64,000 bases of DNA from Isoperla grammatica. Taxonomy: Eukaryota; Arthropoda; Insecta; Plecoptera; Perlodidae. Under the pieces are notes generated by a model. The model worked only from the letters and a program-made list of their open reading frames with translations. It was not told where the DNA came from and ran no database searches. The translations under genes and the position numbers were made by a program. The stretch's first letter is position 1. The number at the start of each line of letters is the position of its first letter. Where the stretch lies: the NCBI GenBank assembly GCA_945910005.1, contig OX246745.1, positions 41,238,564 to 41,302,563 of the forward strand, read 5' to 3'. Positions 1,762 to 64,000 of this stretch are shown piece by piece.

Positions 1762-2180
1762 GAAGTTTTTTTAACTTCTATTAACGATTCAGTTCCATTA
1801 CTTCTTGTCTTAGGAATAAGTAAACGGTGAATTTGCAGCCATCCTAGCAACGAAGCACTCAATAAATTCAAAGTGGTTCTGAATCGGCCTTGTTGATTCT
1901 GGCATTTGTCCGCAGGTGTTCGCAGTGTCCAATCCCTGATTCATATGTTTTGTATTTGAAATATCGATCTGTGATTGGTTATCGCTCACTTGTCGATGGT
2001 GTTCGGATCCTACAGGGTTGGTTTAGTCGCTTTAATTAAAGTCCCCCACTGCAAATCAGTTTAGTTACTGAGTGGGTAGACTCTAAATGTGAATTTGTTT
2101 ATTTTATTTTTTTATTTAATGTATCAATCTTCCATTTGGAATTACTTAACGACCAAATAAGTTGACCGTCTGGGTAAATC
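1762..2180. other. No gene recognised
   Basis: This is AT-rich single-copy-looking sequence up to the first unit of the large minisatellite. I see no motifs, inverted repeats or splice-flanked coding stretches in it. Confidence 0.5.
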
Positions 2181-7002: not shown

Positions 7003-8769
7003 GGTCTGGCATGAACTTCGCAGTGAACTTGCGAATAACCGTAAAGGACCGTTTTATGTTCAATTGTGTCTAAATCGACAAGAATTAACATTGACCAGGT
7101 GATCAAAATATATGCAAAATAACGTGCAAATAACCGTGAAGGACAGTATTTATGATTAATAAGTATATTTAAAGGGCGGTGAATAACCTCGAACAATCAA
7201 TCAACGACTACATGCAGCAGCCCCAGTCAACGTGGACATTTACCTTGTAACATAATAGCCCTCCTGATGCTCATTCACTATATTCAAACTGGCTAGTTAC
7301 TGATGTTTAGTAATTCGTAAATTTACTTTATTAAATTTTACTTGGATTAATATTTCTTAATGAACTTGTTAATTAATAATCAATAAATTGATGCATAATA
7401 CATTAATGAACATTTTCAATTTTCAAAAAAAAGACTGCACCTGTGCTCTCTAGGAGCAATTATCATCATCATCTTCAAGATCGGTAACTATGTCATCTAC
7501 TTTACAAGTTGTCGTCCCAACACCTGGCACCATCTAGCGGACAAAACCAAAAGTCTTCCAAGGCCACCAGAGTGGGGCGATATTTTTTAGTTCCAAGTGG
7601 GTGTACGTGATGGCCCGAGGCTTGGAATCTTCTGGAGATTTCGATGCGCGGTTGAGAGACTGCGAAGCGGACCGAGCAAGAGAGCTAGCTAGCTTCACGT
7701 CGCCATAAGGGTCGGACCTGTACTACTCCGGCGCAGCCATAACAATGGAATCGTTGTGGTAATCTTCAAACAGGAAGCCTACGGTAGATCACTACACCTA
7801 CAAGAAGTACATTCTACCTGTAGAACAAATTTTTTTATTTAAATGAAGTTAAAATTGCCAACTTATTCGACTACGTCCGCGGACTAGGGTCCCATCTTCG
7901 CCGCCCAAGCTTCGGTGGACTTCGACGAAGTTCCTTGACCTCCAAGACCTTCAAGAACATCATCACGTAAATATTCAGTAACATTCAAACAATAAATCAA
8001 ATTCAATAACAACAAATGAACCATGTGCAGTGAATTAAAGTTTTAAAGGCCTTTTTGCGGAATATTTGGTACCAATAATTGCATAACCTACAACATGAAC
8101 TATCAATGAACAGATAATAATTGGATCCATTAACAATATAATTGCAAACATTCAAATTTTCATTATAACTTGTAAAATGCCATAAATTAATAAATTCACC
8201 TTGATTTTTCAATTTGTTTGTTGATGTTACCCTGATTCCCTAAACTGCCTGACATTCCACAGTTCTTAATTTAAAGTAAGTAAAATTAATTATAAAATTT
8301 AATTATTAATTATTATAAAAGATAAGAGTTCCTTGTGCTCTACTTTTGACCTAGTGTCTGGCGCCCAATTCAAATATTCATATTTTTATTTCTGCATTTG
8401 CCGATAGCGTCACAACCCTCGCCCCAACGTCATCGCCCTCCCCTCAACATCTACGAGCGACTCCCATCACCAGAGCCGAAGAGACCGTCGCAAAGGCAAA
8501 TGACAAAACTACGGGTGAGCGTGTCACAGCCCTAACAATAAATTAAAAGTGACAAGCTGGACGCTGTGTTAGTGTACGTTCACGTCGTAAATTGTTGTAG
8601 TGTTATTCATGTTTATGTATGTTGTGTGTACGGTATCTTATATCTTATCTTAATCTTATATCTGAATGCATTTTGTTGTGGGTTTGAAAATCGATACTTT
8701 GCCAATTATATTTAATCCTGGACCTAATTTTTATTTAGCCTCACAAATAAAGAGGAATATTGTTAATTA
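7003..8769. other. Intergenic sequence, nothing recognised
   Basis: Sequence between the minisatellite and the R1-like LINE. It is AT-rich apart from a patch of mixed composition at about 7500-7950. There is a short cat/atc run near 7465 and a tggcgcccaa near 8363 that faintly resembles a retroviral-type primer site, but no LTRs or gag/pol frames support an element here. Confidence 0.5.
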
Positions 8770-17699: not shown

Positions 17700-20600
17700 G
17701 TCCCTCGCACTGGCTTGTCTCTCCTTGAGAGCCACCCGTACCGCGTCCACTCCCCCCACCCCCAGACCGGCACTGGCTTGTCTCTCTCCTTGAGAGCCAC
17801 CCGTACCGCGTCCACTCCCCCCACCCCCAGACCGGCACTGGCTTGTCTCTCTCCTTGAGAGCCACCCGTACCGCGTCCACTCCCCCCACCCCCAGACCGG
17901 CACTGGCTTGTCTCTCTCCTTGAGAGCCACCCGTACCGCGTCCACTCCCCCCACCCCCAGACCAGCACTGGCTTGTCTCTCTCCTTGAGAGCCACCCGTA
18001 CCGCGTCCACTCCCCCCACCCGCAGACCGGCACTGGCTTGTCTCTCTCCTTGAGAGCCACCCGTACCGCGTCCACTCCCCCCACCCCCAGACCAGCACTG
18101 GCTTGTCTCTCTCCTTGAGAGCCACCCGTACCGCGTCCACTCCCCCCACCCCCAGACCAGCACTGGCTTGTCTCTCTCCTTGAGAGCCACCCGTACCGCG
18201 TCCACTCCCCCCACCCCCAGACCAGCACTGGCTTGTCTCTCTCCTTGAGAGCCACCCGTACCGCGTCCACTCCCCCCACCCCCAGACCAGCACTGGCTTG
18301 TCTCTCTCCTTGAGAGCCACCCGTACCGCGTCCACTCCCCCCACCCCCAGACCAGCACTGGCTTGTCTCTCTCCTTGAGAGCCACCCGTACCGCGTCCAC
18401 TCCCCCCACCCCCCGAACGGCACTGGCTTGTCTCTCTCCTTGAGAGCCACCCGTACCGCGTCCACTCCCCCCACCCCCAGACCAGCACTGGCTTGTCTCT
18501 CTCCTTGAGAGCCACCCGTACCGCGTCCACTCCCCCCACCCCCAGACCGGTACTGGCTTGTCTCTCTCCTTGAGAGCCACCCGTACCGCGTCCACTCCCC
18601 CCACCCCCAGACCGGCACTGGCTTGTCTCTCTCCTTGAGAGCCACCCGTACCGCGTCCACTCCCCCCACCCCCAGACCAGCACTGGCTTGTCTCTCTCCT
18701 TGAGAGCCACCCGTACCGCGTCCACTCCCCCCACCCCCAGACCAGCACTGGCTTGTCTCTCTCCTTGAGAGCCACCCGTACACGGTCCACTCCCCCCACC
18801 CCCAGACCGGTACTGGCTTGTCTCTCTCCTTGAGAGCCACCCGTACCGCGTCCACTCCCCCCACCCCCAGACCAGCACTGGCTTGTCTCTCTCCTTGAGA
18901 GCCACCCGTACCGCGTCCACTCCCCCCACCCCCAGACCAGCACTGGCTTGTCTCTCTCCTTGAGAGCCACCCGTACCGCGTCCACTCCCCCCACCCCCAG
19001 ACCGGCACTGGCTTGTCTCTCTCCTTGAGAGCCACCCGTACCGCGTCCACTCCCCCCACCCCCAGACCGGTACTGGCTTGTCTCTCTCCTTGAGAGCCAC
19101 CCGTACCGCGTCCACTCCCCCCACCCCCAGACCGGCACTGGCTTGTCTCTCTCCTTGAGAGCCACCCGTACCGCGTCCACTCCCCCCACCCCCAGACCAG
19201 CACTGGCTTGTCTCTCTCCTTGAGAGCCACCCGTACCGCGTCCACTCCCCCCACCCCCAGACCGGCACTGGCTTGTCTCTCTCCTTGAGAGCCACCCGTA
19301 CCGCGTCCACTCCCCCCACCCCCAGACCAGCACTGGCTTGTCTCTCTCCTTGAGAGCCACCCGTACCGCGTCCACTCCCCCCACCCCCAGACCAGCACTG
19401 GCTTGTCTCTCTCCTTGAGAGCCACCCGTACCGCGTCCACTCCCCCCACCCCCAGACCGGCACTGGCTTGTCTCTCTCCTTGAGAGCAACCCGTACCGCG
19501 TCCACTCCCCCCACCCCCAGACCAGCACTGGCTTGTCTCTCTCCTTGAGAGCCACCCGTACCGCGTCCACTCCCCCCACCCCCAGACCAGCACTGGCTTG
19601 TCTCTCTCCTTGAGAGCCACCCGTACCGCGTCCACTCCCCCCACCCCCAGACCAGCACTGGCTTGTCTCTCTCCTTGAGAGCCACCCGTACCGCGTCCAC
19701 TCCCCCCACCCCCAGACCAGCACTGGCTTGTCTCTCTCCTTGAGAGCCACCCGTACCGCGTCCACTCCCCCCACCCCCAGACCAGCACTGGCTTGTCTCT
19801 CTCCTTGAGAGCCACCCGTACCGCGTCCACTCCCCCCACCCCCAGACCGGTACTGGCTTGTCTCTCTCCTTGAGAGCCACCCGTACCGCGTCCACTCCCC
19901 CCACCCCCAGACCGGCACTGGCTTGTCTCTCTCCTTGAGAGCCACCCGTACCGCGTCCACTCCCCCCACCCCCAGACCGGCACTGGCTTGTCTCTCTCCT
20001 TGAGAGCCACCCGTACCGCGTCCACTCCCTCCACCCCCAGACCGGCACTGGCTTGTCTCTCTCCTTGAGAGCAACCCGTACCGCGTCCACTCCCCCCACC
20101 CCCAGACCAGCACTGGCTTGTCTCTCTCCTTGAGAGCCACCCGTACCGCGTCCACTCCCCCCACCCCCAGACCAGCACTGGCTTGTCTCTCTCCTTGAGA
20201 GCCACCCGTACCGCGTCCACTCCCCCCACCCCCAGACCAGCACTGGCTTGTCTCTCTCCTTGAGAGCCACCCGTACCGCGTCCACTCCCCCCACCCCCAG
20301 ACCAGCACTGGCTTGTCTCTCTCCTTGAGAGCCACCCGTACCGCGTCCACTCCCCCCACCCCCAGACCAGCACTGGCTTGTCTCTCTCCTTGAGAGCCAC
20401 CCGTACCGCGTCCACTCCCCTCACCCCCAGACCGGCACTGGCTTGTCTCTCTCCTTGAGAGCCACCCGTACCGCGTCCACTCCCCCCACCCCCAGACCGG
20501 CACTGGCTTGTCTCTCTCCTTGAGAGCCACCCGTACCGCGTCCACTCCCCCCACCCCCAGACCGGCACTGGCTTGTCTCTCTCCTTGAGAGCCACCCGTA

Positions 20601-21092
20601 CCGCGTCCACTCCCCCCACCCCCAGACCAGCACTGGCTTGTCTCTCTCCTTGAGAGCCACCCGTACCGCGTCCACTCCCCCCACCCCCAGACCAGCACTG
20701 GCTTGTCTCTCTCCTTGAGAGCCACCCGTACCACGTCCACTCCCCCCACCCCCAGACCGGCACTGGCTTGTCTCTCTCCTTGAGAGCCACCCGTACCGCG
20801 TCCACTCCCCCCACCCCCAGACCAGCACTGGCTTGTCTCTCTCCTTGAGAGCCACCCGTACCGCGTCCACTCCCCCCACCCCCAGACCGGCACTGGCTTG
20901 TCTCTCTCCTTGAGAGCCACCCGTACCGCGTCCACTCCCCCCACCCCCAGACCAGCACTGGCTTGTCTCTCTCCTTGAGAGCCACCCGTACCGCGTCCAC
21001 TCCCCCCACCCCCAGACCAGCACTGGCTTGTCTCTCTCCTTGAGAGCCACCCGTACCGCGTCCACTCCCCCCACCCCCAGACCGGCACTGGC
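17700..21092. repeat. Minisatellite, 65-bp unit, about 52 copies
   Basis: The units read gccacccgtaccgcgtccac, then tccccccacccccagacc, then a recurring a/g variant, then cactggcttgtctctctcct. The copies are almost identical. The minus strand is G-rich, with two close runs of five or more G in each unit. The unit has no stop codon in any minus-strand frame. That produces three overlapping frames of 878-1209 codons that are not genes. Confidence 0.97.
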
Positions 21093-21269
21093 TGCCATCC
21101 TGGCGTCCCCCTCCTCCCCAGAGGAATGTAGGCCTCAGGTTCTCCAGTGTTGGTTGCTGGGGGCAACCTAACAACTGTCAAAAAACTAACCGCAACCAAA
21201 TTGCACTAGATAATCGGGAAAAACGTCAGTGATTGGCGCGTTAAGTTGTAAACTAAATGTGGACGGCCC

Positions 21270-25839: not shown

Positions 25840-26809
25840 GGGCTGTGTTTCTATATAGACTACCAATCTTTCTTACATGGACTACAGTCTACACTAATTG
25901 CGCAGTGCATAATGCATATCCCCCTGCTGCTCAGTAGCTTCCCCACCCCCGCCCGGCTGCAACATGGCCTAGCCAATAGCAGTGCCCGCCTAGACCTGAG
26001 GCTGTCCCCCTGCTGCTCAGTAGCTTCCCCACCCCCGCCCGGCTGCAACATGGCCTAGCCAATAGCAGTGCCCGCCTAGACCTGAGGCTGTCCCCCTGCT
26101 GCTCAGTAGCTTCCCCACCCCCGCCCGGCTGCAACATGGCCTAGCCAATAGCAGTGCCCGCCTAGACCTGAGGCTGTCCCCCTGCTGCTCAGTAGCTTCC
26201 CCACCCCCGCCCGGCTGCAACATGGCCTAGCCAATAGCAGTGCCCGCCTAGACCTGAGGCTGTCCCCCCGCCGCTCAGTAGCTTCCCCACCCCCGCCCGG
26301 CTGCAACATGGCCTAGCCAATAGCAGTGCCCGCCTAGACCTGAGGCTGTCCCCCTGCTGCTCAGTAGCTTCCCCACCCCCGCCCGGCTGCAACATGGCCT
26401 AGCCAATAGCAGTGCCCGCCTAGACCTGAGGCTGTCCCCCCGCCGCTCAGTAGCTTCCCCACCCCCGCCCGGCTGCAACATGGCCTAGCCAATAGCAGTG
26501 CCCGCCTAGACCTGAGGCTGTCCCCCCGCCGCTCAGTAGCTTCCCCAACCCCGCCCGGCTGCAACATGGCCTAGCCAATAGCAGTGCCCGCCTAGACCTG
26601 AGGCTGTCCCCCTGCTGCTCAGTAGCTTCCCCACCCCCGCCCGGCTGCAACATGGCCTAGCCAATAGCAGTGCCCGCCTAGACCTGAGGCTGTCCCCCTG
26701 CTGCTCAGTAGCGAGGGGATATGCACTATGCACTGGCCAATTAGTGTGGTCCATATAGGAAGATTATTGGTAGTCTGTATACGAATAGTCTATAATAAAC
26801 ACAGCCCAT
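25840..26809. mobile_element. Inverted-repeat element with an internal minisatellite and 6-bp duplication
   Basis: The left end, gggctgtgtttctatatagac, continues with taccaatctttc and gtgcataatgcatatcccc. The right end is its reverse complement: ggggatatgcactatgcac, then attggtagtctgta, then aaacacagccc. The flanks atctta | gggctg and cagccc | atctta give a 6-bp direct repeat. Between the arms is only the 86-bp array. No transposase is present. It is a non-autonomous DNA element that has captured, or given birth to, a tandem repeat. Confidence 0.75.
25918..26711. repeat. Minisatellite, 86-bp unit, about 9 copies
   Basis: The units read ctgctgctcagtagcttccc, then cacccccgcccggctgcaac, then atggcctagccaatagcagt, and so on. 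The only common variant is ctgctg or cgccgc. The array ends on both sides at the element's inverted arms. Regularly spaced 68-codon minus-strand frames, offset by 86 bp, are repeat artefacts. Confidence 0.96.
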
Positions 26810-31309: not shown

Positions 31310-32565
31310 GCAGCAAAGCACAACACTCTTATAGTCTTCTCAAGCCAGTCCAATCTACCGGTTGACACAAAGCACAACACTCTTAGTCTTCTCAAGCCAG
31401 TCCAATCAACCGGTTGACACAAAGCACAACACTCTTATAGTCTTCTCAAGCCAGTCCAATCAACCGGTTGACACAAAGCACAACACTCTTATAGTCTTCT
31501 CAAGCCAGTCCAATCAACCGGTTGACACAAAGCACAACACTCTTATAGTCTTCTCAAGCCAGTCCAATCAACCGGTTGACACAAAGCACAACACTCTTAT
31601 TCTCAAGCCAGTCCAATCAACCGGTTGACACAAAGCACAACACTCTTATAGTCTTCTCAAGCCAGTCCAATCAACCGGTTGACACAAAGCACAACACTCC
31701 TATAGTCTTCTCAAGCCAGTCCAATCAACCGGTTGACACAAAGCACAACACTCTTATAGTCTTCTCAAGCCAGTCCAATCAACCGGTTGAAACAAAGCAC
31801 AACACTCTTATAGTCTTCTCAAGCCAGTCCAATCAACCGGTTGACACAAAGCACAACACTCTTATAGTCTTCTCAAGCCAGTCCAATCAACCGGTTGACA
31901 CAAAGCACAACACTCTTATAGTCTTCTCAATCCAGTTCAATCAACCGGTTGACACAAAGCACAACACTCTTATAGTCTTCTCAAGCCAGTCCAATCAACC
32001 GGTTGACACAAAGCACAACACTCTTATAGTCTTCTCAAGCCAGTCCAATCAACCGGTTGACACAAAGCACAACACTCTTATAGTCTTCTCAAGCCAGTCC
32101 AATCAACCGGTTGACACAAAGCACAACACTCTTATAGTCTTCGCAAGCCAGTCCAATCAACCGGTTGACACAAAGCACAACACTCTTATAGTCTTCTCAA
32201 GCCAGTCCAATCAACCGGTTGACACAAAGCACAACACTCTTATAGTCTTCTCAAGCCAGTCCAATCAACCGGTTGACACAAAGCACAACACTCTTATAGT
32301 CTTCTCAAGCCAGTCCAATCAACCGGTTGACACAAAGCACAACACTCTTATAGTCTTCTCAATCCAGTTCAATCAACCGGTTGACACAAAGCACAACACT
32401 CTTATAGTCTTCTCAAGCCAGTCCAATCAACCGGTTGACACAAAGCACAACACTCTTATAGTCTTCTCAAGCCAGTCCAATCAACCGTTTGACACAAAGC
32501 ACAACACTCTTATAGTCTTCTCAAGCCAGTCCAATCAACCGGTTGACACAAAATACAACACTGAA
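31310..32565. repeat. Minisatellite, 54-bp unit, about 23 copies
   Basis: The unit runs cttatagtcttctcaagcca, then gtccaatcaaccggttgaca, then caaagcacaacact. A few units carry variants (gttgaaac; aatccagttcaat, twice; one loss of atagtctt). A unit of 54 bp keeps one plus-strand frame open for hundreds of codons, which is an artefact. The array lies roughly 300 bp beyond the predicted poly(A) signal of the channel gene. Confidence 0.96.
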
Positions 32566-39012: not shown

Positions 39013-39099
39013 ATTTTATACTTTTTAGTCTTAAAGAATCTTGCAATCGAATATATATCGAATATCGATTGATTAATTAATTATGATGGTTTAATTGAT

Positions 39100-40560
39100 T
39101 ATTTAATAAATATGACAATTGATTCGTGTATTGTCATTAAGAATACGTCTGTGTGCAAACTTTCAGCTCAATTTGACGTTCGAAAGTCAGTGTTTTATCG
39201 ATCACCATATAAAACATCAATTAATTAATTATTATGGCTTAATTGATTATTTAGTAAATCTGACAATTGATTCATGTACTGTCATTAAGAATACGTCTGT
39301 GTGCAAACTTTCAGCTCAATTCGACGTTCGAAAGTGAGTGTTTTATCGATCCCCATATAAAACATCAATTAATTAATTATGATGGCTTAATTGATTATTT
39401 AGTAAATATGACAATTGATTCATGTATTGTCATTAGAATACGTCTGTGTGAAAACTTTCAACTCGATTCGACGTTGGGAAGTGGGTGAAATATCGATTCC
39501 CATATAAAACATTAATTAATTATGATGAATTAACTGACTATTTTTAGTAAATATGACAATTGATACGTGTATTGTCATTAAGAATACGTCTGTGTGAAAA
39601 CTTTCAGCTCAATTCGACGTTCGGAAGTGGGTTAAACATCGATTCCCATATAAAACATTAATTAATTATGATGAATTAATTGAATATTTAGTAAATGTGA
39701 CAATTGATTCGTGTATTGTCATTAAAAATATGTCTGTGTGAAAACGTTCAGCTCAGTTCAACGTTGGAAAGTGGGTGAAATATCGACTTCCGTATAAAAC
39801 ATCAATTAATTAATTCATTATGATGAATTAATTGATTATTTAGTAAATATGACAATTGATTCGTGTATTGTCATTAAGAACACGTCTGTGTGAAACCTTT
39901 TAACTCGATTTGACGTTGGTAAGTGGGTTAAACTTCAATTCTCATATAAAACATCAATTAATCAATTATTTATGATAAATTAATTGACGATTTAGTAAAA
40001 ATGACAATTGATTCGTGTGAAGTCATTAAGAATACGTCTGTGTAAAAACATTCAAATCGATTTGACGTTAGGAAGTGGACTGTACATCGATTTCCTTATA
40101 AAACATTAATTAATTAATTATGATGAATTAATCGACGATTTAGTAAATATGACAATTGATTCGTGTATTGTCGTTAAGAATACGTCTGTGTGAAAACTTT
40201 CAATTCGATTTGACGTTAGAAAGTGGGTTAAACATCGGTTTCCATATAAAACATGAATTAATTAATTATGATGAATTAATTGACAATTTATTAAATATGA
40301 CAATTGATTCATGTATTGTCATAAGAAATACGTCTGTGTACAAAGTTTCAGATTGATCGGACATTTAAAAGTAGGTGAAATATAGATTCAAAAATTCATC
40401 GATTTCCATGTAAAACATTAATTAATTAATTATGATGAATCATTTGACAATTTAGTAAATATGACAGTTGATTCATGTATTGTCATCAAGAATACGTCTG
40501 TGTTAAAAATTTCAGCTTGATCGGACATCTAGAAGTAGGTGGAATATCGATTCAAAGATT
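39100..40560. repeat. Diverged tandem repeat, ~145-152-bp unit, about 10 copies
   Basis: The landmark tgacaattgattcgtgtatt followed by gtcattaagaatacgtctgt occurs near 39113, 39261, 39409, 39554, 39699, 39850, 40002, 40150, 40299 and 40462. Each copy also has a gacgtt...aagtgggt block and an attaattaattatgatgaat block. Copies are clearly diverged, so this array is older than the minisatellites. It lies in a sei intron. Confidence 0.9.
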
Positions 40561-45101: not shown

Positions 45102-46994
45102 TTTAGTGCTAATGCTAAAGGGCAACATTATACTACCAATATGTTCAGTGCTAATGCTAAAGGGCAACATTATACTACCAATATGTTCAGTGCTAATGCT
45201 AAAGGGCAACATTATACTACCAATCTCTTACCAACATGTTCAGTGCTAATGCTAAAGGGCAACATTATACTACCAATCTCTTACCAACATGTTCAGTGCT
45301 AATGCTAAAGGCGCAACATTATACTACCAATCTCTTACCAACAAGTTCAGTGCTAATGCTAAAGGGCCACATTATACTACCAATCTCTTACCAACATGTT
45401 CAGTGCTAATGCTAAAGGGCAACATTAGACTACCAATCTCTTACCAACATGTTCAGTGCTAATGCTAAAGGGCAACATTATACTACCAATATGTTCAGTG
45501 CTAATGCTAAAGGGCAACATTATACTAGCAATCTCTTACCAACATGTTCAGTGCTAATGCTAAAGGGCAACATTAGACTACCAATCTCTTACCAACATGT
45601 TCAGTGCTAATGCTAAAGGGCAACATTATACTACCAATATGTTCAGTGCTAATGCTAAAGGGCAACATTATACTACCAATCTCTTACCAACATGTTCAGT
45701 GCTTATGCTAAAGGGCAACATTATACTACCAATATGTTCAGTGCTAATGCTAAAGGGCAACATTATACTACCAATCTCTTACCAACATGTTCAGTGCTAA
45801 TGCTAAAGGGCAACATTAGACTACCAATCTCTTACCAATATGTTCAGTGCTAATGCTAAAAGGCAACATTATACTACCAATCTCTTACCAACATGTTCAG
45901 TGCTAATGCTAAAGGGCAACATTAGACTACCAATCTCTTACCAACATGTTCAGTGCTAATGCTAAAGGGCAACATCATACTACCAATCACTTACCAACAT
46001 GTTCAGTGCTAATGCTAAAGGGCAACATTATACTACCAATATGTTCAGTGCTAATGCTAAAGGGCAACATTATACTACCAATCTCTTACCAACATGTTCA
46101 GTGCTAATGCTAAAGGGCAACATTAGACTACCAATCTCTTACCAACATGTTCAGTGCTAATGCTAAAGGGCAACATTAGACTACCAATCTCTTACCAACA
46201 TGTTCAGTGCTAATGCTAAAGGGCAACATTATACTACCAATATGTTCAGTGCAATGCTAAAGGGCAACATTATACTACCAATCTCTTACCAACATGTTCA
46301 GTGCTAATGCTAAAGGGCCACATTATACTACCAATCTCTTACCAACATGCTCAGTGCTAATGCTAAAGGGCAACATTATACTACCAATCTCTTACCAACA
46401 TGCTCAGTGCTAATGCTAAAGGGCAACATTAGACTACCAATCTCTTACCAACATGTTCAGTGCTAATGCTAAAGGGCAACATTATACTACCAATCTCTTA
46501 CCAACATGTTCAGTGCTAATGCTAAAAGGCAACATTATACTACCAATCTCTTACCAACATGTTCAGTGCTAATGCTAAAGGGCCACATTATACTACCAAT
46601 CTCTTACCAACATGTTCAGTGCTAATGCTAAAGGGCAACATTATACTACCAATCTCTTACCAACATGCTCAGTGCTAATGCTAAAGGGCAACATTATACT
46701 ACCAATATGTTCAGTGCTAATGCTAAAGGGCAACATTATACTACCAATCTCTTACCAACATGTTCAGTGCTAATGCTAAAGGGCAACATTAGACTACCAA
46801 TCTCTTACCAACATGTTCAGTGCTAATGCTAAAGGGCAACATTAGACTACCAATCTCTTACCAACATGTTCAGTGCTAATGCTAAAGGGCAACATTATAC
46901 TACCAATATGTTCAGTGCAATGCTAAAGGGCAACATTATACTACCAATCTCTTACCAACATGTTCAGTGCTAATGCTAAAGGGCCACATTATAC
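45102..46994. repeat. Minisatellite, 53/42-bp units, about 38 copies (first block)
   Basis: The units contain cagtgctaatgctaaagggc, then aacattatactaccaatctc and ttaccaacatgtt. A shorter 42-bp unit lacks ctcttaccaac and is scattered among the long ones in repeated groupings. The array lies in the sei intron directly before the 44865-45082 exon and is interrupted at 46994 by a LINE. It resumes at about 51455. Confidence 0.96.
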
Positions 46995-47334: not shown

Positions 47335-50184
47335 CTAGGTATTGAGAATCCACTTATAACACTTTTGTTTGAATACGTACGAACTATTGGTTGCTTGCTT
47401 AATTGAATGGGGCAACATGTTCCATAGCTTAGGGGCGAGAACTGAGAAAGAAGCACTGCCTGCCACAGAGTGATGTAAGGGGATTTCATACGTACTATTC
47501 CTTGTATTATAACTGTGATACGAGCCCGTATGTTTTAGTTTATTATATAAATAACCCGGTCTTTTATTTCTTATGATTCTCGCGATATTGCAATAATAAT
47601 GTAAGGTTCTACGTTGGTGCATTTTTAGAATTTTGTGTGTATCATATATGTGGCTAATGTGGTCAAACTTTCTAATATTACACGCAAAGCGAATTGATGC
47701 ATTCTGTAATTTTTGAATTTGTTTTAATACATTTTCATTTATACCCATGTACACTGTATCCGCATAATCAAACAATGGGTTTATTAAGGAATTTATGAGA
47801 TTTAATTTGACATTTTCACTAAGCTCCAGTTTCCATTTATAGAGGGATCTAAGTACACCATAGGCTTTTGAACACTGTTTCTGGATGTGTTTATCGAAGG
47901 ATAAGTTACTGTCAAACAATACTCCAAGGTTTTTCCCTTCGTCTGACAAAGGCAGAGTTGTACCGCACATTTTTATAGCAGAAATCTTATTCCCATTTAG
48001 TAAATTTCGGACTACTTGTTCATTGTGTTTGCTACCTATAAGGATAACTGTCGACTTACTAGGATTAAAGTTCAAACCATTTTTTATCGACCATTCCGCG
48101 AGTAGTTGAAGATCAGTGTTAAAGTTATGAAAACTCTCTTCTATTGTTTCTATTGTTTCTAGATTTACTTCCAAAATACCTTGCACATCATCTGCATACT
48201 GATATATATTAATACGTCTAGTCACTGCTGGCAGACTTTGGGCAAATATATTAAAGAATAATGGTCCAAGGATTGATCCTTGTGGCACTCCGCAATGCAC
48301 TGTTAGCGGTTGTGATATTAATACTTCATTATTCTTAACAACTTTAACTTTTTGAGTTCTTTCAGATAAATAACTTTTAACTAACTTTTCGGCTGATTTA
48401 GAAAATCCCATGTTGTAGAGTTTTGCCAGAAGCATGTCATGGTCAATTGTGTCAAAGGCCTTACTATAATCTAGGAGTAAGAGTAAACTAGTATTACCAT
48501 TGTCAATGTTGTTCCTCAGTTCATCTACTACAGAAATAAGCGCGGTGGTAGTACTGTGATCTCTTCTAAATCCCGATTGATTTTTAAAGAAGTCACATAG
48601 ATTGTTGGATATATGCTCATTAATTTGCTCTGCCATTATCTTCTCTAAAAGTTTTGATGTAGTAGGAAGAATACTTATTGGCCTAAGGTCATTCAGTGAT
48701 TTTACTGTGTTCGTTTTCGGTATAGGTGTAATTATAGCCTCTTTCCAGCTGTTTGGGAAGGTTGAAGTCGTCAAAGCTGTATTAATAATATCGGTGATTA
48801 TATTTATTAAATAAGGCGATAGTAATTGTAGTATGTTTATATTAATATTGTCGGCACCTGTGGCCGTTGTTGTTATCGTCGAAAGGTGCTTTAACACGTC
48901 ATCGCAAACCACGTTTCTAAAAGAGAATGGAATATGTGTTAGGGTGTCTACTGTCCTTAAACGATTTATTTCTTCAATTAATTCAGGAGTTTTGATTTGA
49001 TTTTTTGTAACGTGATTGAAGAAGGCGTTAATCTCATCAGGAACTAACATGTTACTGGGGATAGGATTTGTGTGTTTGTGTTTTGTAACCGAGTGCTTTT
49101 TAAGACTTTTCCAAAGTAATTTTGAATTATTAATGTTACTATTTATGGTTTCATTAAAATAATTTATTTTTAACGATCGCACCCTCGTGTTGATTTTATT
49201 TCTTAAGTGTACATAATTATCCCAGTCTCTGGAATCACTAGTGAGTTTGAACTTTAATCTAGCCTTTTCTCGTGCTTTCATTTCTCCACGTAATTCGTCC
49301 GTAAGCCATGGAGCAGGGCCCCTAGTAACTCGAATGTTTTTGGTTGGGACATGTGTGTCCAGTAGTGTTGTTATAATGGAGTTAACTGTCTCCACTTTCT
49401 TGTTAATGTCAATAATGTCCCTAACAGAATACCAAGGTGTATGCATCGCACTTTCATTAAGTGCCGATATGTTACTGGTTGTAAGAGGTCGTATTTTTTT
49501 ATTCACTATTGTCTTTTTGGGTAACGTGATATTATAATCGATAAAGGTAAGATTGTGATCTGAGTTGCCGATAGGATGAAGTTGCCCAGTTTGCTTTACA
49601 ATAGAAGCATTACTCACATTTATTACGTCTAATAAAGTGCGGGATGTTTGTGTGATACGGGTACATTCTTGCACTACCTGAGTAAAGCTGTAAGTTCTAA
49701 GCAGTTTGTGCAACACACGATTATCTTGACACTCAGGTTTGGCCATGTCGATATTCAGGTCACCTACCCATATAGCATGATCCTCGGGAATACAAAATCT
49801 CTGTATGTTTTCTTCTAATTCATCTAAGCTTAAGTTCCCAGATGGCGGTCTATATATAGTCCCTAATACTACATTTATAGATTTTATTTTAAACTTGATC
49901 CACAATTGCTCTATGTTTGCTTGTGCGGATTCCAGAATTGTCACATTTATGTCATCACGAACAAATATCGCAACTCCGCCCCCCCTCCTATCATTGGCTC
50001 TGTCAGCTCTATACAAATTATAGCCGTTAATATTTAAGTATGGCGGATTCACAGATGGTTTAAGCCATGTTTCGGTTAGGGCAAGTATATCAAATCTGTT
50101 GAGTAATAGCGCTTCTGAAAGTTCATCACTGTTTTTGATGATAGACCTAATATTTGTATCACCAATACGTAATAATTTATTCAC
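47335..50184 (-). CDS. LINE ORF2: endonuclease-reverse transcriptase, intact
   Basis: About 949 residues without a break. An apurinic-like endonuclease occupies residues 1-220 (ALTETWLKPS, RGGGVAIFVRDDI, GTIYRPPSG, WVGDLNIDM, and NSDHNLTF near the end). The reverse transcriptase spans about 450-730, with LRPISILPTTSKLLEK, SGFRRDHSTTTALI, LLLLDYSKAFDTIDHDML, HCGVPQGSILGP and QYADD. A C-terminal domain follows, with LFDYADTVYMG and LHYYCNIARI. It nicks DNA and copies the element's RNA at the nick. There is no ATG between the ORF1 stop and the endonuclease; the coordinate given starts at a GTG. ORF2 is in the same frame as ORF1, separated by one TAG and 14 codons. Confidence 0.93.
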   Translation of the reverse strand: MNKLLRIGDTNIRSIIKNSDELSEALLLNRFDILALTETWLKPSVNPPYLNINGYNLYRADRANDRRGGGVAIFVRDDINVTILESAQANIEQLWIKFKIKSINVVLGTIYRPPSGNLSLDELEENIQRFCIPEDHAIWVGDLNIDMAKPECQDNRVLHKLLRTYSFTQVVQECTRITQTSRTLLDVINVSNASIVKQTGQLHPIGNSDHNLTFIDYNITLPKKTIVNKKIRPLTTSNISALNESAMHTPWYSVRDIIDINKKVETVNSIITTLLDTHVPTKNIRVTRGPAPWLTDELRGEMKAREKARLKFKLTSDSRDWDNYVHLRNKINTRVRSLKINYFNETINSNINNSKLLWKSLKKHSVTKHKHTNPIPSNMLVPDEINAFFNHVTKNQIKTPELIEEINRLRTVDTLTHIPFSFRNVVCDDVLKHLSTITTTATGADNININILQLLSPYLINIITDIINTALTTSTFPNSWKEAIITPIPKTNTVKSLNDLRPISILPTTSKLLEKIMAEQINEHISNNLCDFFKNQSGFRRDHSTTTALISVVDELRNNIDNGNTSLLLLLDYSKAFDTIDHDMLLAKLYNMGFSKSAEKLVKSYLSERTQKVKVVKNNEVLISQPLTVHCGVPQGSILGPLFFNIFAQSLPAVTRRINIYQYADDVQGILEVNLETIETIEESFHNFNTDLQLLAEWSIKNGLNFNPSKSTVILIGSKHNEQVVRNLLNGNKISAIKMCGTTLPLSDEGKNLGVLFDSNLSFDKHIQKQCSKAYGVLRSLYKWKLELSENVKLNLINSLINPLFDYADTVYMGINENVLKQIQKLQNASIRFACNIRKFDHISHIYDTHKILKMHQRRTLHYYCNIARIIRNKRPGYLYNKLKHTGSYHSYNTRNSTYEIPLHHSVAGSASFSVLAPKLWNMLPHSIKQATNSSYVFKQKCYKWILNT

Positions 50185-50226
50185 AGCTACCTTATTATTC
50201 TCCTCAATCTCTCCACTCCCAGTTCC

Positions 50227-51454: not shown

Positions 51455-51896
51455 ACTCTACCAATCTCTTACCAACATGCTCAGTGCTAATGCTAAAGGG
51501 CAACATTATACTACCAATCTCTTACCAACATGCTCAGTGCTAATGCTAAAGGGCAACATTAGACTACCAATCTCTTACCAACATGTTCAGTGCTAATGAC
51601 ATTATACTACCAATCTCTTACCAACATGTTCAGTGCTAATGCTAAAAGGCAACATTATACTACCAATCTCTTACCAACATGTTCAGTGCTAATGCTAAAG
51701 GGCCACATTATACTACCAATCTCTTACCAACATGTTCAGTGCTAATGCTAAAGGGCAACATTATACTACCAATCTCTTACCAACATGCTCAGTGCTAATG
51801 CTAAAGGGCAACATTATACTACCAATCTCTTACCAACATGCTCAGTGCTAATGCTAAAGGGCAACATTATACTACCAATCTCTTACCAACATGTTT
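51455..51896. repeat. Minisatellite, 53-bp units, about 8 copies (second block)
   Basis: A continuation of the array at 45102-46994 beyond the inserted LINE, with the same unit and variants (catgctcag or catgttcag, gggcaac or gggccac). One unit has a 12-bp internal loss near 51598. It ends at catgtttatgaag. Confidence 0.95.
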
Positions 51897-52878: not shown

Positions 52879-53072
52879 ATCCCTCATGTTGAAGGTCAGT
52901 TCCAGATTATTGGCGAACGAATGGTAAAACTCTGGATAAAGTGTCAACACATCAAGAAGATCATCCCTGTAGATCTGATGGAGGTCGCAATAGGTCAGAG
53001 CGCGGACGTTGCATGAAGACTTGCCCAAGGAGCGGTGGAGACAAGGGTTCTCTCCGAAGATGTCATCCTTCC
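52879..53072 (-). CDS. sei: sei exon 2 of those visible: second half of the cyclic-nucleotide-binding homology domain
   Basis: A 194-bp exon with acceptor ccattccag and donor AGGGAT|gtaagt. It begins by completing a Gly codon and reads [52 protein letters not shown] and [12 protein letters not shown]. These match human ERG closely ([28 protein letters not shown], from memory). KCNH domains do not bind cyclic nucleotides. A short intrinsic ligand at the end, FNL in human ERG, fills the pocket. Here the corresponding residues are FNM. Closeness to ERG over EAG or ELK identifies the subfamily. Confidence 0.96.
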
Positions 53073-56778: not shown

Positions 56779-57070
56779 CCAATATGGCCATGACGATATC
56801 GTCGCGTAGTATCTCGATGGAGCCCCGAGAGATGAAGTAGAGGGAGGAGAGGACGTCCCCGCGATGCACCAGGGTGTCGCCGGGCGGTGCATGTGTGGTC
56901 TTGAACTTGAGGGAGAGCGCTCTGAGACAGCCAGGCGGAGCGTCGTCGAACACAGGACAGTTGGTCAGCAGGTTCCGGTTCAGATGGAGACAGATATCAG
57001 CTTGGAGACACTCGGGGAACCCCTTGAGTACGCTGTTCATGTCGATGCCGTTTGTGTAGGTCCACGCGTG
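56779..57070 (-). CDS. sei: sei exon 1 of those visible: C-linker end and first half of the binding-homology domain
   Basis: A 292-bp exon with acceptor tatgtctag and donor ATATTGG|gtgaga. It begins [20 protein letters not shown] and continues [17 protein letters not shown], then [16 protein letters not shown] and [16 protein letters not shown], ending MAILG. Human ERG reads [20 protein letters not shown] (from memory), so the phase and acceptor are secure. The C-linker couples the cytoplasmic gating ring to the pore. The first 44 bases of this exon are the source of the neighbouring 45-bp array. Confidence 0.97.
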
Positions 57071-60000
57071 CTAGACATAGAGATGCGTCATGTAACGTGT
57101 CAGTACGCTGTTCATGTCGATATAGAGATGCGTCATGTAACGTGTCAGTACGCTGTTCATGTCGATATAGAGATGCGTCATGTAACGTGTCAGTACGCTG
57201 TTCATGTCGATATAGAGATGCGTCATGTAACGTGTCAGTACGCTGTTCATGTCGATATAGAGATGCGTCATGTAACGTGTCAGTACGCTGTTCATGTCGA
57301 TATAGAGATGCGTCATGTAACGTGTCAGTACGCTGTTCATGTCGATATAGAGATGCGTCATGTAACGTGTCAGTACGCTGTTCATGTCGATATAGAGATG
57401 CGTCATGCAACGTGTCAGTACGCTGTTCATGTCGATATAGAGATGCGTCATGTAACGTGTCAGTACGCTGTTCATGTCAATATAGAGATGCGTCATGTAA
57501 CGTGTCAGTACGCTGTTCATGTCGACATAGAGATGCGTCATGTAACGTGTCAGTACGCTGTTCATGTCGATATAGAGATGCGTCATGTAACGTGTCAGTA
57601 CGCTGTTCATGTCGATATAGAGATGCGTCATGTAACGTGTCAGTACGCTGTTCATGTCGATATAGAGATGCGTCATGTAACGTGTCAGTACGCTGTTCAT
57701 GTCAATATAGAGATGCGTCATGTAACGTGTCAGTACGCTGTTCATGTCGATATAGAGATGCGTCATGTAACGTGTCAGTACGCTGTTCATGTCGATATAG
57801 AGATGCGTCATGTAACGTGTCAGTACGCTGTTCATGTCGATATAGCGATGCGTCATGTAACGTGTCAGTACGCTGTTCATGTCGATATAGAGATGCGTCA
57901 TGTATCGTGTCAGTACGCTGTTCATGTCGATATAGAGATGCGTCATGTAACGTGTCAGTACGCTGTTCATGTCGATATAGAGATGCGTCATGTATCGTGT
58001 CAGTACGCTGTTCATGTCGATATAGAGATGCGTCATGTAACGTGTCAGTACGCTGTTCATGTCGATATAGCGATGCGTCATGTAACGTGTCAGTACGCTG
58101 TTCATGTCAATATAGAGATGCGTCATGTAACGTGTCAGTACGCTGTTCATGTCGATATAGAGATGCGTCATGTAACGTGTCAGTACGCTGTTCATGTCAA
58201 TATAGAGATGCGTCATGTAATGTGTCAGTACGCTGTTCATGTCGATATAGAGATGCGTCATGTAACGTGTCAGTACGCTGTTCATGTCGATATAGAGATG
58301 CGTCATGTAACGTGTCAGTACGCTGTTCATGTCGATATAGAGATGCGTCATGTAACGTGTCAGTACGCTGTTCATGTCGATATAGAGATGCGTCATGTAA
58401 CGTGTCAGTACGCTGTTCATGTCGATATAGAGATGCGTCATGTATCGTGTCAGTACGCTGTTCATGTCGACATAGAGATGCGTCATGTAACGTGTCAGTA
58501 CGCTGTTGATGTCGACATAGAGATGCGTCATGTAACGTGTCAGTACGCTGTTCATGTCGATATAGAGATGCGTCATGTAACGTGTCAGTACGCTGTTCAT
58601 GTCGATATAGAGATGCGTCATGTAACGTGTCAGTACGCTGTTCATGTCGATATGGAGATGCGTCATGTAACGTGTCAGTACGCTGTTCATGTCGACATAG
58701 AGATGCGTCATGTAACGTGTCAGTACGCTGTTCATGTCGATATAGAGATGCGTCATGTAACGTGTCAGTACGCTGTTCATGTCAATATAGAGATGCGTCA
58801 TGTAACGTGTCAGTACGCTGTTCATGTCGATATAGAGATGCGTCATGTAACGTGTCAGTACGCTGTTCATGTCGATATAGAGATGCGTCATGTAACGTGT
58901 CAGTACGCTGTTCATGTCGATATAGAGATGCGTCATGTAACGTGTCAGTACGCTGTTCATGTCGATATAGAGATGCGTCATGTAACGTGTCAGTACGCTG
59001 TTTATGTCGATATAGAGATGCGTCATGTAACGTGTCAGTACGCTGTTCATGTCGATATAGAGATGCGTCATGTAACGTGTCAGTACGCTGTTCATGTCGA
59101 TATAGAGATGCGTCATGTAACGTGTCAGTACGCTGTTCATGTCGATATAGAGATGCGTCATGTAACGTGTCAGTACGCTGTTTATGTCGATATAGAGATG
59201 CGTCATGTAACGTGTCAGTACGCTGTTCATGTCAACATAGAGATGCGTCATGTAACGTGTCAGTACGCTGTTCATGTCGATATAGAGATGCGTCATGTAA
59301 CGTGTCAGTACGCTGTTCATGTCGACATAGAGATGCGTCATGTAACGTGTCAGTACGCTGTTCATGTTGACATAGAGATGCGTCATGTAACGTGTCAGTA
59401 CGCTGTTCATGTCGTCATAGAGATGCGTCATGTAACGTGTCAGTACGCTGTTCATGTCGTCATAGAGATGCGTCATGTAACGTGTCAGTACGCTGTTCAT
59501 GTCGACATAGAGATGCGTCATGTAACGTGTCAGTACGCTGTTCATGTCGACATAGAGATGCGTCATGTAACGTGTCAGTACGCTGTTATGTCGATATAGA
59601 GATGCGTCATGTAACGTGTCAGTACGCTGTTCATGTCGATATAGAGATGCGTCATGTAACGTGTCAGTACGCTGTTCATGTCGATATAGAGATGCGTCAT
59701 GTAACGTGTCAGTACGCTGTTCATGTCGACATAGAGATGCGTCATGTAACGTGTCAGTACGCTGTTCATGTCGACATAGAGATGCGTCATGTAACGTGTC
59801 AGTACGCTGTTCATGTCGACATAGAGATGCGTCATGTAACGTGTCAGTACGCTGCTCATGTCGACATAGAGATGCGTCATGTAACGTGTCAGTACGCTGT
59901 TCATGTCAATATAGAGATGCGTCATGTAACGTGTCAGTACGCTGTTCATGTCGACATAGAGATGCGTCATGTAACGTGTCAGTACGCTGTTCATGTCGAT

Positions 60001-63000
60001 ATAGAGATGCGTCATGTAACGTGTCAGTACGCTGTTCATGTCGATATAGAGATGCGTCATGTAACGTGTCAGTACGCTGTTCATGTCGATATAGAGATGC
60101 GTCATGTAACGTGTCAGTACGCTGTTCATGTCAATATAGAGATGCGTCATGAAACGTGTCAGTACGCTGTTCATGTCGATATAGAGATGCGTCATGTAAC
60201 GTGTCAGTACGCTGTTCATGTCGATATAGAGATGCGTCATGTAACGTGTCAGTACGCTGTTCATGTCGATATAGAGATGCGTCATGTAACGTGTCAGTAC
60301 GCTGTTCATGTCGATATAGAGATGCGTCATGTAACGTGTCAGTACGCTGTTCATGTCGATGCCGTTTGTGTAGGTCCACGCGTGCTAGACAGAGATGCGT
60401 CATGTAACGTGTCAGTACGCTGTTCATGTCGATATAGCGATGCGTCATGTAACGTGTCAGTACGCTGTTCATGTCAATATAGAGATGCGTCATGTAACGT
60501 GTCAGTACGCTGTTCATGTCGATATAGAGATGCGTCATGTAACGTGTCAGTACGCTGTTCATGTCAATATAGAGATGCGTCATGTAACGTGTCAGTACGC
60601 TGTTCATGTCGATGCCGTTTGTGTAGGTCCACGCGTGCTAGACAGAGATGCGTCATGTAACGTGTCAGTACGCTGTTCATGTCGATATAGAGATGCGTCA
60701 TGTAACGTGTCAGTACGCTGTTCATGTCGATATAGAGATGCGTCATGTAACGTGTCAGTACGCTGTTCATGTAGATATAGAGATGCGTCATGTAACGTGT
60801 CAGTACGCTGTTCATGTCAATATAGAGATGCGTCATGTAACGTGTCAGTACGCTGTTCATGTCGATATAGAGATGCGTCATGTAACGTGTCAGTACGCTG
60901 TTCATGTCGATATAGAGATGCGTCATGTAACGTGTCAGTACGCTGTTCATGTCGATATAGAGATGCGTCATGTAACGTGTCAGTACGCTGTTCATGTCGA
61001 TATAGAGATGCGTCATGTAACGTGTCAGTACGCTGTTCATGTCGACATAGAGATGCGTCATGTAACGTGTCAGTACGCTGTTCATGTCGACATAGAGATG
61101 CGTCATGTAACGTGTCAGTACGCTGTTCATGTCGATATAGAGATGCGTCATGTAACGTGTCAGTACGCTGTTCATGTCGATATAGAGATGCGTCATGTAA
61201 TGTGTCAGTACGCTGTTCATGTCGATATAGAGATGCGTTATGTATCGTGTCAGTACGCTGTTCATGTCGATATAGAGATGCGTCATGTAACGTGTCAGTA
61301 CGCTGTTCATGTCGATGCCGTTTGTGTAGGTCCACGCGTGCTAGACAGAGATGCGTCATGTAACGTGTCAGTACGCTGTTCATGTCGATATAGCGATGCG
61401 TCATGTAACGTGTCAGTACGCTGTTCATGTCGATATAGAGATGCGTCATGTAACGTGTCAGTACGCTGTTCATGTCGATATAGAGATGCGTCATGTAACG
61501 TGTCAGTACGCTGTTCATGTCGATATAGAGATGCGTCATGTAACGTGTCAGTACGCTGTTCATGTCGATATAGCGATGCGTCATGTAACGTGTCAGTACG
61601 CTGTTCATGTCGATATAGAGATGCGTCATGTAACGTGTCAGTACGCTGTTCATGTCGATATAGAGATGCGTCATGTAACGTGTCAGTACGCTGTTCATGT
61701 CGATATAGAGATGCGTCATGTAATGTGTCAGTACGCTGTTCATGTCGATATAGAGATGCGTCATGTATCGTGTCAGTACGCTGTTCATGTCGATATAGAG
61801 ATGCGTCATGTAATGTGTCAGTACGCTGTTCATGTCGATATAGAGATGCGTCATGTATCGTGTCAGTACGCTGTTCATGTCGATATAGAGATGCGTCATG
61901 TAACGTGTCAGTACGCTGTTCATGTCGATGCCGTTTGTGTAGGTCCACGCGTGCTAGACAGAGATGCGTCATGTAACGTGTCAGTACGCTGTTCATGTCG
62001 ATATAGAGATGCGTCATGTAACGTGTCAGTACGCTGTTCATGTCGATATAGAGATGCGTTATGTAACGTGTCAGTACGCTGTTCATGTCAATATAGAGAT
62101 GCGTCATGTAACGTGTCAGTACGCTGTTCATGTCGATATAGAGATGCGTCATGTAACGTGTCAATACGCTGTTCATGTCAATATAGAGATGCGTCATGTA
62201 ATGTGTCAGTACGCTGTTCATGTCGATATAGAGATGCGTCATGTAACGTGTCAGTACGCTGTTCATGTCAATATAGAGATGCGTCATGTAACGTGTCAGT
62301 ACGCTGTTCATGTCGATATAGAGATGCGTCATGTATCGTGTCAGTACGCTGTTCATGTCGATATAGAGATGCGTCATGTAACGTGTCAGTACGCTGTTCA
62401 TGTCGATATAGAGATGCGTCATGTAACGTGTCAGTACGCTGTTCATGTCGATATAGAGATGCGTCATGTAACGTGTCAGTGTCTGTTCATGTCGATATAG
62501 AGATGCGTCATGTAACGTGTCAGTACGCTGTTCATGTCGATATAGAGATGCGTCATGTAACGTGTCAATACGCTGTTTATGTCGATATAGAGATGCGTCA
62601 TGTAACGTGTCAGTACGCTGTTCATGTCGATGCCGTTTGTGTAGGTCCCCGCGTGCTAGACAGAGATGCGTCATGTAACGTGTCAGTACGCTGTTCATGT
62701 CGATATAGAGATGCGTCATGTAACGTGTCAGTACGCTGTTCATGTCGATATAGAGATGCGTCATGTAACGTGTCAGTACGCTGTTCATGTCAATATAGAG
62801 ATGCGTCATGTAACGTGTCAGTACGCTGTTCATGTCGATATAGAGATGCGTCATGTAACGTGTCAGTACGCTGTTCATGTCGATATAGAGATGCGTCATG
62901 TAACGTGTCAGTACGCTGTTCATGTCGATATAGAGATGCGTCATGTAACGTGTCAGTACGCTGTTCATGTCGATATAGAGATGCGTCATGTAACGTGTCA

Positions 63001-64000
63001 GTACGCTGTTCATGTCAATATAGAGATGCGTCATGTAACGTGTCAGTACGCTGTTCATGTCGATATAGAGATGCGTCATGTAACGTGTCAGTACGCTGTT
63101 CATGTCAATATAGAGTTGCGTCATGTAATGTGTCAGTACGCTGTTCATGTCGATATAGAGATGCGTCATGCAACGTGTCAGTACGCTGTTCATGTCAATA
63201 TAGAGATGCTTCATGTAACGTGTCAGTACGCTGTTCATGTCGATATAGAGATGCGTCATGTAACGTGTCAGTACGCTGTTCATGTCGATATAGCGATGCG
63301 TCATGTAACGTGTCAGTACGCTGTTCATGTCGACATAGAGATGCGTCATGTAACGTGTCAGTACGCTGTTCATGTCGATATAGAGATGCGTCATGTAACG
63401 TGTCAGTACGCTGTTCATGTCGATATAGAGATGCGTCATGTAACGTGTCAGTACGCTATTCATGTCGATATAGAGATGCGTCATGTAACGTGTCAGTACG
63501 CTGTTCATGTCGATGCCGTTTGTGTAGGTCCCCGCGTGCTAGACAGAGATGCGTCATGTAACGTGTCAGTACGCTGTTCATGTCGATATAGAGATGCGTC
63601 ATGTAACGTGTCAGTACGCTGTTCATGTCGATATAGAGATGCGTCATGTAACGTGTCAGTACGCTGTTCATGTCGATATAGAGATGCGTCATGTAACGTG
63701 TCAGTACGCTGTTCATGTCGATATAGAGATGCGTCATGTAACGTGTCAGTACGCTGTTCATGTCAATATAGAGATGCGTCATGTAACGTGTCAGTACGCT
63801 GTTCATGTCGATATAGAGATGCGTCATGTAACGTGTCAGTACGCTGTTCATGTCAATATAGAGTTGCGTCATGTAATGTGTCAGTACGCTGTTCATGTCG
63901 ATATAGAGATGCGTCATGCAACGTGTCAGTACGCTGTTCATGTCAATATAGAGATGCTTCATGTAACGTGTCAGTACGCTGTTCATGTCGATATAGAGAT
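57071..64000. repeat. Exon-derived minisatellite, 45-bp unit (about 144) plus six 73-bp units
   Basis: The array begins at the 3' splice site of the 56779-57070 exon and runs off the window. The common unit is agtacgctgttcatgtcgat followed by atagagatgcgtcatgtaac and gtgtc. The first 20 bases equal exon bases 57027-57046 and the other 25 equal intron bases 57077-57101. The six longer units (gccgtttgtgtagg starting at 60361, 60614, 61317, 61930, 62632 and 63515) also hold the first 24 exon bases and the acceptor. Because 45 is a multiple of three, several frames stay open for hundreds of codons, including one on the minus strand repeating IDMNSVL. None is a gene. Confidence 0.97.

Follow-up and report, generated by a model that had tools for sequence, protein, structure and literature searches.

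Duplications that carry the edge of an exon have been proposed as one origin of introns and new splice sites, and the published cases compared here are small. The closest described systems are the 'mirages' of amphioxus, reported in Adh3, in the globin genes BflGb6 and BflGb9, in troponin C and in PGBD5 (PMC3087553, PMC3902484). Internal tandem repeats at exon-intron boundaries in human segmental duplications average 30 bp x 4 (PMC2812944); intron gain by tandem genomic duplication has been described (PMC3443670) and is known also in Drosophila (PMC2891723); and in mouse and human cells small tandem duplications arise from fill-in and end-joining of staggered breaks (PMC8355091). In the literature searched, no insect exon-edge minisatellite was recognised.

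The DNA considered here is a stretch of 64,000 nucleotides from the insect Isoperla grammatica (the window; G000:C2:41238564-41302563 of an 874-Mb assembly in 603 contigs), together with the next 50 kb, which is numbered on from the window. It houses exons of a gene for an ERG channel, which were located using a human ERG sequence as the query. The exon at 56779-57070 matches Anopheles AGAP007709 (4l11) over 97 aa (1.6e-55), and the ERG protein is nearest, among the proteins scored, to those of termite (93%) and cockroach (95% over 84% of the query). On the upstream side of the gene, that is towards higher window coordinates, this exon is adjoined by a long tandem array. The features needed to describe the junction are as follows.

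52879..53072, minus strand: the next ERG exon (KDDIFGENP...FNMRD), its edges without an array; from exon location and protein alignment.
56779..57070, minus strand: ERG exon at the start of the cyclic-nucleotide-binding homology region (HAWTYTNG...MAILG); from the protein match and the splice edges as read.
57071..57072, minus strand: true AG acceptor of that exon; read from the sequence, with protein continuity EYFQ/HAW.
57027..57101, minus strand: founder copy of 75 bp, made up of 44 exon bases (57027-57070), 25 intron bases (57071-57095) and a 6-bp filler (57096-57101).
57102..64000, no strand assigned: the array, mainly of 45-bp units, extending past the window to 77598 in the continued numbering (G000:C2:41316161); 149 whole units in the window and 444 overall.

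The first-pass annotation had placed a 75-bp founder at 57027-57101 with an exact copy offset from 57027 to 57102, and had derived the common 45-bp unit from it by removal of 57047-57076, namely 24 exon bases and six intron bases including the AG. Reading of the sequence bears out both statements: the copy after the founder begins at 57102, and the deletion is as described. No microhomology was seen by inspection flanking the 30-bp loss that made the 45-bp unit. The same annotation divided the founder into 44 bp of exon and 31 bp of intron; the exon part stands, but the remainder is better taken as 25 intron bases and a 6-bp filler. On the gene strand, unique intron (...GGGGACC) at the array's far end passes directly into TTACATGACGCA, which is also the opening of the 25 intron bases that precede the true acceptor, and past the 25th base the ancestral intron there diverges. 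Because the far-end flank starts like those 25 bases, the first duplication can be reconstructed as having taken 25 intron bases together with 44 exon bases, the six bases GACACG being added where the copies meet. The proposal that the array was born from the edge of a coding exon and its splice site is thereby supported, and since the exon protein is conserved across animals, the direction of copying was from exon to array. The opposite arrangement, with the array as founder and the exon as its copy, was rejected, the exon protein being conserved from insects to human.

The array had been given a length of 7 kb, which reflects the end of the window cutting through it: the true end lies at 77598, and with the 50 kb beyond the window included the array measures about 20.6 kb and 444 units. 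About 144 units had been said to follow the founder; the part of the array inside the window has 149 whole units after it (141 of 45 bp, six of 73 bp and two of 44 bp). The full census comprises 425 units of 45 bp, 14 of 73 bp, the 75-bp founder, one of 44 bp and three of 89 bp, each of the last being one 45-bp and one 44-bp unit read together. The 45-bp unit is the common one; the 73-bp units had gone unmentioned. Just over half of the 45-bp units (217/425) are identical to the consensus, and 46 distinct 45-mers are distributed throughout the array. Nor does every unit carry 20 bases identical to the exon, as had been claimed; these bases are unchanged in 312 of the 444 units. TRF also detects the tandem array, which is minisatellite-like. 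Across the 874-Mb assembly a 30-base exon-edge probe (up to 2 mismatches) matched 15 times, always at this locus: once at the exon copy and 14 times besides. The reversed control gave no match; a dispersed element as the source of the array is not supported.

The AG acceptor and all 44 exon bases are retained in each of the fourteen 73-bp units. Six of them lie inside the window, as listed here from the unit census, with no strand assigned.

60341..60413: 73-bp unit with acceptor, its 44 exon bases identical to the exon.
60594..60666: 73-bp unit with acceptor, its 44 exon bases identical to the exon.
61297..61369: 73-bp unit with acceptor, its 44 exon bases identical to the exon.
61910..61982: 73-bp unit with acceptor, its 44 exon bases identical to the exon.
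62612..62684: 73-bp unit in which one exon base differs, turning a Trp codon into Gly (translation HAGTYTNG).
63495..63567: 73-bp unit with the same Trp-to-Gly base change as the 62612 unit, also seen on translation.

Over the whole array the exon part is identical to the exon in seven long units, while in the other seven the Trp codon is changed to Gly, one of these bearing a second change. All 14 have the same 2-bp loss relative to the founder, which indicates that they descend from one long unit and spread inside the array; repeated copying of long units from the exon was rejected on the same ground. The suggestion that the array raises the chance of conversion or slippage into the coding exon found no counterpart on the one haplotype available: neither the 2-bp loss nor the changed exon bases appear in exon 56779-57070, so that no conversion into the exon is visible there.

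The ERG array is not a unique case: two other edges in the same gene are repeated, both at donors.

79802-80255 (continued numbering): pore-exon donor array, 36 bp x 12.6.
90613-90811 (continued numbering): S5-exon donor duplication, 102 bp x 2.

The pore exon ends in ...ATGCTCGTTGGAT, followed by the donor GTAAGT, and 22 bp of this edge with a 14-bp filler make the 36-bp unit; in the 2 kb around the array, outside the array itself, no stretch of the filler 8 bases or longer could be located. The S5 exon ends in ...GCATTTG, again followed by GTAAGT, and 97 bp of edge with a 5-bp filler make the 102-bp unit. These two edges, of the same plan with 22+14 bp and 97+5 bp, support the reconstruction of a 69-bp duplication with a 6-bp filler at the acceptor. 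As read from the sequence, use of the second S5 donor would lead to an in-frame TAA, and use of the third or any later pore donor to an in-frame TAG, while with the second pore donor (GTTAGT) the frame would be kept and 12 residues gained.

Joining of the exons at their exon-proximal sites gives 490 residues, and in alignment with human ERG there is no insertion or deletion at any of the three affected junctions, LACIW/YAIG, MLVG/SLMY and EYFQ/HAW; the same is true against the termite, cockroach, mosquito and shrimp proteins. Two alignment gaps against human ERG both lie away from these junctions. One of them is at an array-free exon junction; there the protein has three residues more than human ERG, and these are present also in the insect and shrimp proteins. 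The donor of the array-bearing intron is at the end of the upstream exon, at 79329/79328, outside the array. Since exon-proximal joining yields an ERG protein without insertions or deletions at the affected junctions, the arrays are presumably spliced out whole.

The origin that we favour, with a probability of roughly 0.8, is that the array is an exon-edge minisatellite of the amphioxus 'mirage' kind, arising by a break-repair duplication, losing the acceptor from its unit, growing, being spliced out with the intron and most likely having no function. A 69-bp segment, consisting of the last 25 intron bases with the acceptor and the first 44 exon bases, would first have been duplicated in tandem and a 6-bp filler added where the copies meet, an outcome to be expected when a staggered break is filled in and its ends are joined. 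A loss of 30 bp from one copy, the acceptor included, would then have given the 45-bp unit. Through unequal exchange or replication slippage this unit, together with a few acceptor-bearing 73-bp units, would have expanded to about 20.6 kb. All of the array would be intron in the transcript, the exon-proximal acceptor being used and the protein left unchanged; exon definition may be the reason, in that only this acceptor adjoins an exon with a working donor. The array would then be one product of a minisatellite-rich genome that has caught other exon edges in the same way.

Two other accounts of the array bear on its reality and on its function. An assembly error, by which an array belonging to another place, or a much shorter one, came to be joined or inflated at this locus, has in its favour that 20.6 kb may exceed the length of many reads and that two blocks within the array recur exactly.

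57412..60151, no strand assigned: exact internal duplicate of 2,740 bp, its twin being at 71116-73855, 13,704 bp away and outside the window.

The second exact block, of 1,026 bp, recurs 2,773 bp away. When the units are written as a code, one short repeated motif is seen within the window, the larger blocks becoming apparent only with the full array. Exact blocks of this kind fit either exchange in multi-kb steps or assembly duplication, and assembly may have had some part in shaping this largest array and its 2,740-bp duplicate. Large exchanges do approach the exon closely, the 2,740-bp block starting 342 bp from it. But the junction of two separate loci, which had been named among the findings that would overturn the first-pass reading, is unlikely: the ERG exons on either side of the array, ending ...EYFQ upstream and beginning HAW... 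downstream, are consistent in order, orientation and phase. The exon-edge probe, moreover, matches nowhere else in the assembly, and the distinct 45-mers are scattered through the array, although its length may be inflated. Assembly error is on this evidence highly improbable. Scarcely more credible is that the array has been kept for a role in splicing, either as a source of branch-point-like motifs and spare acceptors or because it slows the transcript or makes it pair. Each join fuses exon TACT with filler GAC to form TACTGAC, which we take to be a branch-point-like motif, and its complement GTCAGTA occurs 443 times in the 444-unit array; so uniform a motif would fit such a role, as would the persistence of fourteen acceptor copies. 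A C. elegans minisatellite is reported to be over-represented near alternative splicing (PMC4039745). Against this, homogenisation by itself accounts for a uniform motif, the acceptor is gone from the common unit, and read-through from a decoy acceptor would either shift the frame or run in frame into the TAG at the true acceptor, and so give broken products.

Minisatellite cover was counted at a period of at least 12 and a TRF score of at least 100. On this basis minisatellites make up 44% of the 174 kb around the ERG locus, and about 15% on average of 12 scattered 10-kb stretches, one of which is covered to 97% and three at 0; a fourth stretch (L027) was absent from the TRF output and was taken as 0 in that average. 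Exon edges of other genes were sampled through an Ion_trans search, which gave at least 101 exon matches with 150 of 197 candidates scored. Around some of these matches 20 windows were taken. One, L034, was picked for its four tandem S4 hits; the other 19, reaching about 300 bp past the matches, comprise 20 matched exons not selected for repeats. Two tandem-looking Ion_trans matches (C7:25941257-25942239 and C7:32368150-32368534) had poor scores and stops, and were left uncounted. TRF arrays with units of at least 20 bp were found in L034 (141 bp x 5.3), L050 (43 bp x 4.1) and L051 (85 bp x 3.0), each including a splice site and the end of an exon. In L044, self-comparison showed the exon end and donor repeated once at 74% identity with indels, which is a decayed duplication. 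By TRF and self-comparison, then, an exon-edge repeat is present in three of the 20 unselected exons, one of them decayed. A kinase search gave at least 139 matches with 126 of 678 candidates scored; among the matches listed there was one close tandem pair, and L054, picked for that pair, holds two 166-bp stretches 162 bp apart and 93% alike that span an exon end and its donor. Comparison with solved structures assigned L050 and L051 to a sodium channel, L034 to a T-type calcium channel, L044 to a sodium-channel-like gene and L054 to a cGMP-dependent kinase (PKG). The repeated edges are acceptors in ERG, L034 and L050, and donors at the ERG pore and S5 exons and in L051, L044 and L054.

Other repeats in these regions may be recorded here. 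The window contains further large minisatellites at 2179-7004 (79 bp x 61.5), 17707-21093 (65 bp x 52.1), 25919-26712 (86 bp x 9.2) and 31314-32562 (54 bp x 23.3). Two arrays of one 53-bp unit flank a non-LTR-type open reading frame with reverse transcriptase and endonuclease domains (window 45134-46994, 47335-50226 and 51458-51893), as if the element had inserted into the 53-bp array or carries it. A repeat with a period of about 148-164 bp, at 39072-40560 and at 127277-128517 and 132577-132954 in the continued numbering, has the look of one that a dispersed element carries. About 182 copies of an 89-bp unit occupy 101512-118200 in the continued numbering (L014-L017), and an apparent lone copy of this unit lies just upstream of the ERG S1 exon, at about 97350-97420. 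A tRNA-like or SINE-like stretch was noted by reading near the start of L034, in the intron and close to the calcium-channel array.

It is tempting to suggest, as an addition to the favoured explanation, that exon-intron junctions are preferred birthplaces of minisatellites in this genome, through contrast in base composition, R-loops or transcription-linked breaks, and are not struck at random. Three of the eight arrays in the ERG core straddle one of its 14 splice sites, for which uniform placement gives P = 0.0018 for three or more, a figure that used approximate, typed splice-site positions and TRF periods as unit lengths; the gene, however, was picked on account of one of the three cases, and the other five arrays lie away from splice sites. 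TRF gave two arrays with units of at least 20 bp in the 19 unselected windows, each at an exon edge, and a decayed duplication marks another edge, but these windows extend little beyond the matched exons, the two arrays (L050 and L051, about 13 kb apart on one contig) look like parts of one gene, and 17 of the 20 exons are without a repeat. GC content is 37.9% in unique ERG-core sequence and 45-57% in its eight arrays. A preference for exon edges is thus suggestive, not shown, and we regard it as rather doubtful. Equally tentative is a wider picture of this insect lineage, in which junctions would be preferred for minisatellite birth, splice-site duplications all over the genome, at perhaps a tenth of exons, would arise, grow to tens of kb and decay, and hundreds of copies and many intact decoys beside strongly constrained exons would be tolerated in splicing.

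The exon-edge minisatellites include cases of two, about 13 and 444 copies in one gene, and young and decayed ones in other genes, so that a single genome could allow their history to be traced from birth through growth and loss of the copied splice site to decay. They also offer ready-made constructs for the study of splice-site choice, with near-identical donors 36 bases apart and acceptor copies over 20 kb, beside strongly constrained exons.

First-step duplications like the one proposed here are known: those from staggered breaks are likewise of tens of bases, although there the breaks were induced and the passages compared mention no growth into arrays (PMC8355091). Intron gain by tandem duplication similarly involves local copying of splice signals in coding genes (PMC3443670, PMC2891723), but in that process a duplicated exonic AGGT supplies both splice sites of a new intron (PMC3443670); here the edge of an existing intron was duplicated and that intron grew, its donor at 79329/79328 lying outside the array, which ends at 77598. 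The human internal tandem repeats share minisatellite growth over exon-intron boundaries, but in recently duplicated genes with novel introns and alternative transcripts, whereas the genes here encode conserved channels with a protein that appears intact from the predicted joins (PMC2812944). The amphioxus mirages are the nearest of all. They share minisatellite-like tandem duplication of the intron-exon boundary, at donors or acceptors, in several genes and with the splice signals copied; and in this genome, too, the unit spans the boundary, at five further loci and two more ERG edges as well as in the ERG array, in minisatellite-like tandem form, in several genes and at both donors and acceptors. 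Regular splicing is apparently undisturbed in amphioxus, and here the predicted protein is continuous at the three ERG junctions. Instability of length between alleles, also somatic, is a further mark of mirages, of which the exact blocks inside the ERG array would be at most an indirect sign. The differences are that the derived unit here is without a splice site, that the genome is not that of amphioxus, and that the scale is another: the amphioxus globins have 2-6 units of 150-160 bp and Adh3 has units of 10-72 bp, while here there are up to 444 units over 20.6 kb (PMC3087553, PMC3902484). The ERG array is an extreme case of the amphioxus-type mirage, a kind already known.
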